The position numbers and the translations under genes are program-made. Shown here in pieces: positions 33,456-35,284 of a stretch of 64,000 bases of DNA. The stretch is from Deltaproteobacteria bacterium. GTDB taxonomy: Bacteria; Desulfobacterota; Deferrisomatia; Deferrisomatales; BM512. The notes under the pieces are model-generated. The model ran no database searches, was not told the origin of the DNA, and saw only the letters and a list, made by a program, of their open reading frames with translations. The stretch covers positions 1 through 64,000 of the forward strand of contig PKTT01000009.1 of assembly GCA_002869015.1 (NCBI GenBank). The letters are read 5' to 3'. Position 1 is the stretch's first letter. Every line of letters begins with the position of its first letter.

Positions 33456-33484
33456 CAAGCGGTTAAGCTTAAATTAAAATAAGA

Positions 33485-33513
33485 GGGCGGCCTTAATGGG
33501 CCGCCCTTTTTTT
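33485..33513 (+). terminator. Intrinsic terminator of rpsA
   Basis: GGGCGGCC (33485-33492), a loop of about five to six bases, and GGCCGCCC (33499-33506) form a perfect eight-pair GC stem followed by seven T. It lies 30 bases after the rpsA stop. The convergent DUF4407 frame ends inside the T run at 33512. Confidence 0.92.
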
Positions 33514-34336
33514 ATGGTATACCCGCAGGCCCGCCGCCCTTATTGTTCAGCTCCTCTAGCTCTTTAAAGTATTTCTTCTTAGCGGAGGAGATTTTTTCCT
33601 CAATCTCCGTCTCCTCCTTTTCCTTTCGCTGAATATGATCCTTTAGGCTCAGTACCTCTTCTTCTTTGTCTTCAAGCTGAGCCGCATAGACGCTTTTATC
33701 ATCGTTGAGCTGGTGTATCCTCTCCCTGACATCCATTATCGCCGCTTCAAGCTGGCATTTAGTGGCTATCGTATTCTTGAAGACGCCCTCCTCCTTTATA
33801 TCCCCGCTGGAGAGCTGCTTGTCGATAACCTCCATTGAGCGGCCCTGGGCGGTCAGGTCTTGATTCAGCCGCTCAAGGTCGGCGACTGAACGCCTCAAGG
33901 AATGCTCAAGCTGACGCTTCTTTTCATAGGCTTTCTTCAGGTCTTCTTTTAATGGGCCTATAGATTCGCGTATGAGGGTGCGCTCATTTTTAAGGATGAA
34001 AATGGAGTTCTCGTATGAAGCCCGGATTTCACCGGAACGCCTGTTCTTATCATCCTCCCGGACAAATATCTGGTAATTGTTGAGGCACCACTCTTCAAAC
34101 CTCAAGGGCTCGATGAAGCCCGCTTTGTTAGGCTCTCCATCCCTTCCGGCTCTCTCCGACTCATGCAGCCATGTATCGAATAGGCCACGCTGGTACTGTT
34201 TAAATAGGTCCTGGAGGCAGTCGTTGTAATATACCCTTACTGCCTTTGGCTGAAAGAGCTTGAGGATGAAGAGTCCTCCGATTAGGAGGAAGAGGAAGGT
34301 GCGTATCGCCTGCTTGGCAAGGCCATACTTTTCATC
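33512..34336 (-). pseudogene. C-terminal part of an interrupted DUF4407 protein
   Basis: This 274-codon frame directly continues the upstream gene after its TAA. It begins DEKYGLAKQAIRTFLFLLI, with a membrane helix (FLFLLIGGLFILKLF) like the last helix of DUF4407 proteins. It then runs through about 170 residues of charged coiled coil to a C-terminal GGGPAGIP. No ATG occurs in frame in its first 77 codons; the first possible start is a TTG at 34105 with no clear ribosome-binding site, which would omit the helix. So this is the detached end of one original gene rather than an independent gene. Confidence 0.75.
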
Positions 34337-35131
34337 TTACATCAACTCCGTAAGTACGCGGGATTCAGTCTCTATGCCGGGTTTTAGAAATTCAACCTTG
34401 TATTTTCTCGCTATGCCGTCGAGATCGAGGGCGTCAAAATCATTTAATTCGTCCTCCTTTTCAGCTGTTGCCTTGTCGAGCTGACTCTCGACTGCTGATA
34501 TATTCTCCCTGATTGAGCGGGCGACTACGCCATCGCCGTGAATTCCTGATGGCCCGGTCCCGGCGGTCTCCTCGATGAGCGAAGCCCTGAGCTCATCGAG
34601 CTTTTTTTCAAAATTGTCTATCTTGTTATCGTGGCTGGTAACTATACCGGTCCTTGTTTCAGCGACCTTAGCCATATTAAGGGTCTCTATGCGGCCATCG
34701 ATGTCGTAGGAGAAGACAAGCTGCGCAAGAAAGGGCGCGCTGACCATGTAAGAGCCGAGGACTATTGCAACGCGGCCGCCGACTCCGCCGAAGCCTTTCG
34801 CGATGTACTTCACTTTGTCTAGAGTTGAGAATACATTCCCCTTGATTGTGCGCTCGTAGAAAGCAAGAGAGGTGTCGAGGGTCATGAAGGTCGCGTCAAC
34901 CAGCCAGATAACCGAGAAGATGAACAAACCGCATAGGAGCGCCGCAAATACCGGGCTGACGTTGCGCCCGATGGACCAGCCCATATAGCCCCAGCTGATC
35001 CCCTCGGCCGTCGCCATAATGGTTATCATTATACGCACAACAAAGATCCACCATGCGGCGCTGGGCGTTAACAGATCATCGCGGTTTGGCTTTAGTGAAA
35101 CCCAATCTTTGATGGAGAACTTGATCTTCAT
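34337..35131 (-). CDS. N-terminal part of DUF4407 membrane/coiled-coil protein
   Basis: A 264-residue product. Three or four membrane helices fall in residues 25-150 (AAWWIFVVRIMITIMATAEG, LLCGLFIFSVIWLVD, VAIVLGSYMVSAPFLAQLVF). A coiled-coil segment of about 90 residues follows, and it stops at TELM just before where the family's final membrane helix should be. The frame continues beyond the TAA (34337-34339) into 33512-34336 with the expected helix and coiled coil. With that stop removed the protein would have about 539 residues. DUF4407 proteins have no established function. Confidence 0.78.
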   Translation of the reverse strand: MKIKFSIKDWVSLKPNRDDLLTPSAAWWIFVVRIMITIMATAEGISWGYMGWSIGRNVSPVFAALLCGLFIFSVIWLVDATFMTLDTSLAFYERTIKGNVFSTLDKVKYIAKGFGGVGGRVAIVLGSYMVSAPFLAQLVFSYDIDGRIETLNMAKVAETRTGIVTSHDNKIDNFEKKLDELRASLIEETAGTGPSGIHGDGVVARSIRENISAVESQLDKATAEKEDELNDFDALDLDGIARKYKVEFLKPGIETESRVLTELM

Positions 35132-35225
35132 GCCGCACCTCCAATGCAGTTTAGATGCCGGGGGACACCTTTAACTCCAAGGTAGGGGAGGCGCCTTAAT
35201 TTCTCATCACTCCAAAGAGTGAAAA

Positions 35226-35261
35226 TAAATAAAAAGAGGGCGACCCTTTTGGGCCGCCCTC
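35226..35261 (-). terminator. Intrinsic terminator of cspA
   Basis: On the minus strand GAGGGCGGCCC (from 35261 to 35251) pairs across an AAAA loop with GGGUCGCCCUC (35246 to 35236), with one G-U pair. It is followed by U5 and an AU-rich stretch. It lies 24 bases after the cspA stop. Confidence 0.88.
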
Positions 35262-35284
35262 CTGGCTTTTGCTTTTTGTCCCGC

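Follow-up and report, generated by a model that had tools for sequence, protein, structure and literature searches.

Two adjacent minus-strand reading frames in the 64,000-nucleotide stretch analysed here (the window) probably represent one accessory DUF4407-like gene, acquired by this lineage and then struck by a recent nonsense mutation just before the codons for its fourth membrane helix. From ATG 35131 the frame runs for 264 codons to an in-frame TAA, and beyond this stop another 274 codons follow in the same frame before a terminal TAA, so that the joined frame of 264 residues, a stop and 274 residues comprises 539 positions (Table 1). Direct reading of the sequence bears out the original prediction that the two same-phase frames are parted solely by TAA 34337–34339 and that the intact protein would be about 539 residues long. 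The 77 codons after the stop contain no stop and no ATG, as the prediction had stated, and are also free of GTG and TTG.

Table 1 Features of the interrupted gene and its borders
Feature	Position in window	Strand	Description
Terminator hairpin of upstream cold-shock gene	35234..35263	-	Upstream border of the block
Shine-Dalgarno-like GGAGGT preceding ATG 35131	35137..35142 (to within 1–2 bases)	-	Read from the sequence
N half	34340..35131	-	264 codons; three predicted membrane helices and a coiled coil, extracytoplasmic by topology; DUF4407-like
In-frame TAA stop	34337..34339	-	
C continuation	33515..34336	-	274 codons; predicted fourth helix, then a long charged coiled coil; without a plausible start of its own
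Terminal TAA of joined frame	33512..33514	-	
Terminator hairpin common to the block and the convergent S1-like gene	33481..33510	.	Downstream border of the block

Both sides of the stop carry the signature of protein-coding DNA. An open run of 77 codons in one given frame is not rare, appearing in 1.8% of first-order simulations with the same dinucleotide steps; an open run of 274 codons appeared in 0 of 20,000 such simulations. A codon-usage score trained on 32 genes of the window gives +0.245 for the N half, +0.263 for the C half and +0.227 for the 77 codons alone, compared with 0.15–0.35 for sampled ordinary genes and with lower, mostly negative values in the other five frames. GC3 is 0.64 in the N half and 0.61 in the C half. 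Together, codon scores and simulations indicate that one and the same frame codes, or once coded, for both parts, and the lack of a second defect across 539 positions suggests that the nonsense mutation is recent. In-frame coding signal thus continues past the stop without a new start, the pattern expected of a pseudogene.

The two halves also behave as a unit in their genomic setting. Strong terminator hairpins were found only outside the two frames, which lie as one block between them, and this block has a single good ribosome-binding site, the GGAGGT ahead of the ATG of the N half. The flanking hairpins are direct repeats of each other, 83% identical over 30 nt and aligned at 33478–33507 and 35231–35260 of the window, and could aid gain or loss of the block. 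Eight related hairpin matches occur in the genome, some of them palindromic and counted on both strands. Genome G001, from the same genus, carries uvrC, the cold-shock gene and the S1-like gene at about 82% nucleotide identity, with about 8 nt between the two terminators and the whole ~1.7 kb block, both halves included, absent. Two genomes of the same family (G002 and G004) have a gap of about 75–90 nt between uvrC and S1 with no such gene inside, and neither half was found in 98 relatives. The convergent uvrC/S1-like arrangement is shared by the window, G001, G002 and G004; in G003 (L050, G003:C3) the two genes lie ~1.8 kb apart in the same orientation. With a lower G+C content (about 50–52%, against a gene mean of 58% and a minimum of 54%), which fits a recent gain, the block was more likely acquired by this lineage than lost repeatedly elsewhere; its lack in the sister genome is observed, and the direction of the change is what these comparisons suggest. 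Shared codon signal, a single ribosome-binding site, terminators on the outside only, joint absence from the sister genome and a four-helix topology that appears only on joining together give good support to the earlier view of one protein split by one stop.

Predicted topology likewise connects the halves. Membrane helices are predicted at residues 20–38, 54–72, 121–139 and 271–289 of the joined frame, and at residues 47–65, 72–90, 112–130 and 274–292 of an intact DUF4407 protein from the same phylum (L005:1417-2403, genome G360). The order of three helices, a coiled coil and a fourth helix is obtained only when the frame is joined, and the spacing to the fourth helix is about equal in the two proteins. 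Loop charges are compatible with a cytoplasmic location of both protein ends. In an alignment that adds a second intact protein, from Persicobacter psychrovividus plasmid pPP1 (L052:1983-3002), the TAA falls a few residues before helix 4, where both intact proteins read on. These two are confirmed DUF4407 proteins (E 1e-38 for L005 and 6e-34 for L052). A single-sequence AlphaFold model is confident only in the coiled coils, with pLDDT <50 for the membrane part; beyond helix 4 the tail is modelled confidently as helix over most of its length.

Assignment of the joined frame to DUF4407 is marginal at the sequence level. The Pfam search proposed with the original prediction scored 30.7 bits (E 2.5e-7) for the N half, just under the curated PF14362 cut-off of 31.3 bits, and 24.6 bits for the joined frame; a whole-genome scan that took in neighbouring stretches reached 32.9 bits. 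The score alone is not conclusive, as other phylum proteins, in which the four-helix topology is lacking, score as high as 28 bits on the same profile. DUF4407 matches were examined in 37 genomes of the phylum, and nearly all lack that topology, leaving L005 as the only clear member. hhalign gives a probability of 1.4% for the relationship, the profile match ends at DUF4407 position 216 of 297 with the C-terminal portion (217–297) unmatched, and the C half alone has no family match in the profile search. Evidence for helix 4 therefore consists of position and hydrophobicity, not sequence similarity. The proposal that the helix after the stop is the one DUF4407 proteins have at this point thus stands as regards its prediction at 271–289 and the topology and spacing of the two intact proteins, and finds no significant sequence match; family membership fares similarly, with topology in favour and borderline profile scores, so that the assignment is weaker than first proposed. 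The window protein aligns collinearly with DUF4407 over joined residues 43–173, including the W..G and Q..F..DI positions. It differs in its sub-threshold profile score, 22–25% identity, internal TAA and an extra cytoplasmic coiled-coil tail of about 220 residues. It also differs from both intact examples in having no small coiled-coil gene upstream. In those examples a small gene without a Pfam family directly precedes the DUF4407 gene (L005:2625-3083 on the minus strand and L052:1472-1999 on the plus strand), and a segment of one encoded product weakly resembles a segment of the other (27% over 64 residues, E 3e-5 in a single comparison). Similarity between the C tail and the small upstream gene of L052 is not significant.

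Searches with the N half, the C half and a three-sequence alignment found no orthologue in 98 relatives, 84,980 species genomes (searched with peptide patterns), phages, plasmids or viral contigs. The intact DUF4407 proteins that were found, L005 and L052, are distant, and each is a single frame. The same searches revealed no two-gene form, in which an upstream gene ends at TELM and a separate gene follows, nor any close homologue, and so speak only weakly against such a form. One candidate (L035) was discarded, its match being confined to a brief coiled-coil region within a phage protein of 765 aa. No relatives of L005 were found in viral contigs and phages, PDB sequences gave only insignificant coiled-coil matches to nucleoporins, and the literature on DUF4407 yielded three incidental mentions.

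The most serious alternative, though an unlikely one, is that the real gene is intact and the stop stems from faulty assembly or consensus calling, or from a minority strain variant, in a possibly metagenome-derived genome. The assembly is a draft of 67 contigs at 95.45% completeness, and a single codon is hit with no second defect in the frame, as normal constraint on an intact gene would predict. Regional base quality nevertheless looks good: uvrC and the S1-like gene nearby are full-length, and no other sense-strand gene in 124 kb of the contig has an in-frame stop followed by long coding sequence that lacks an early start. No other interior TAA was found in a sense-strand gene of these 124 kb, and other apparent split frames without an early second start lie opposite longer genes. 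A generally poor assembly is unlikely given that no other such interrupted gene occurs in this region, and we infer a true mutation instead of an error.

Readings in which the stop belongs to a working gene are less probable still. A natural two-protein form, in which the 264-residue product acts together with a downstream product started separately, is improbable: coding character is kept in both parts, the stop separates the external coiled coil from helix 4 at what may be a domain boundary, and coupled re-initiation at an unusual start codon is possible by sequence, but the continuation showed no start codon that is both in frame and preceded by a ribosome-binding site. The first in-frame TTG after the stop is at 34105, and a putative start there would leave out helix 4. 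The sole nearby GGAG (34349) faces an in-frame ATG directly followed by TAA, or an out-of-frame ATG; moreover, both intact DUF4407 proteins found are single frames. It is highly improbable that the TAA is put to use, through regulated readthrough or an unconventional restart, to give a short three-helix and a long four-helix DUF4407-like protein. We give the least weight of all to programmed or leaky readthrough, or a reassigned code, producing a short and a long form. The continuation is indeed open and codon-like for 274 codons, yet TAA, a stop read by both release factors and regarded as the least leaky, ends 10 of 32 tallied genes in the window (TAG ends 7 and TGA 15). With each of the three stop codons terminating ordinary genes, the code in use is the standard one and TAA is not reassigned, excluding a changed code. 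RNA around the stop shows no recoding signal, folding no better than shuffles (z −0.49), and no homologue conserving the stop was found.

The preferred explanation remains a nonsense mutation in an acquired gene. An accessory gene for a DUF4407-like inner-membrane protein would have been gained between the cold-shock and S1-like genes, and a single nonsense mutation would then have arisen just ahead of the codons for the fourth membrane helix. When intact, the protein would have spanned the membrane with four helices, its two ends in the cytoplasm, with an external coiled coil linking helix 3 to helix 4 and a long coiled-coil tail on the cytoplasmic side. Ordinary translation of the present sequence would yield only the 264-residue product, made up of three helices and, at its end, the external coiled coil; lacking helix 4 and the tail, this product is probably non-functional. 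The locus resembles an ordinary nonsense-mutation pseudogene in its single in-frame stop, otherwise intact frame and apparently recent accessory character. It differs in having no intact orthologue in the collections searched with which to date or polarise the mutation, and the single uninterrupted ancestral frame is presumed from the joined sequence.

In annotation, a single interrupted DUF4407-like gene, probably of recent acquisition, should replace a pair of hypothetical proteins as the description of the two frames. Beyond annotation the finding has little importance, the locus being an ordinary interrupted accessory gene. Were readthrough of the TAA to be shown, the locus would stand as a rare example in bacteria of one gene giving two membrane topologies.
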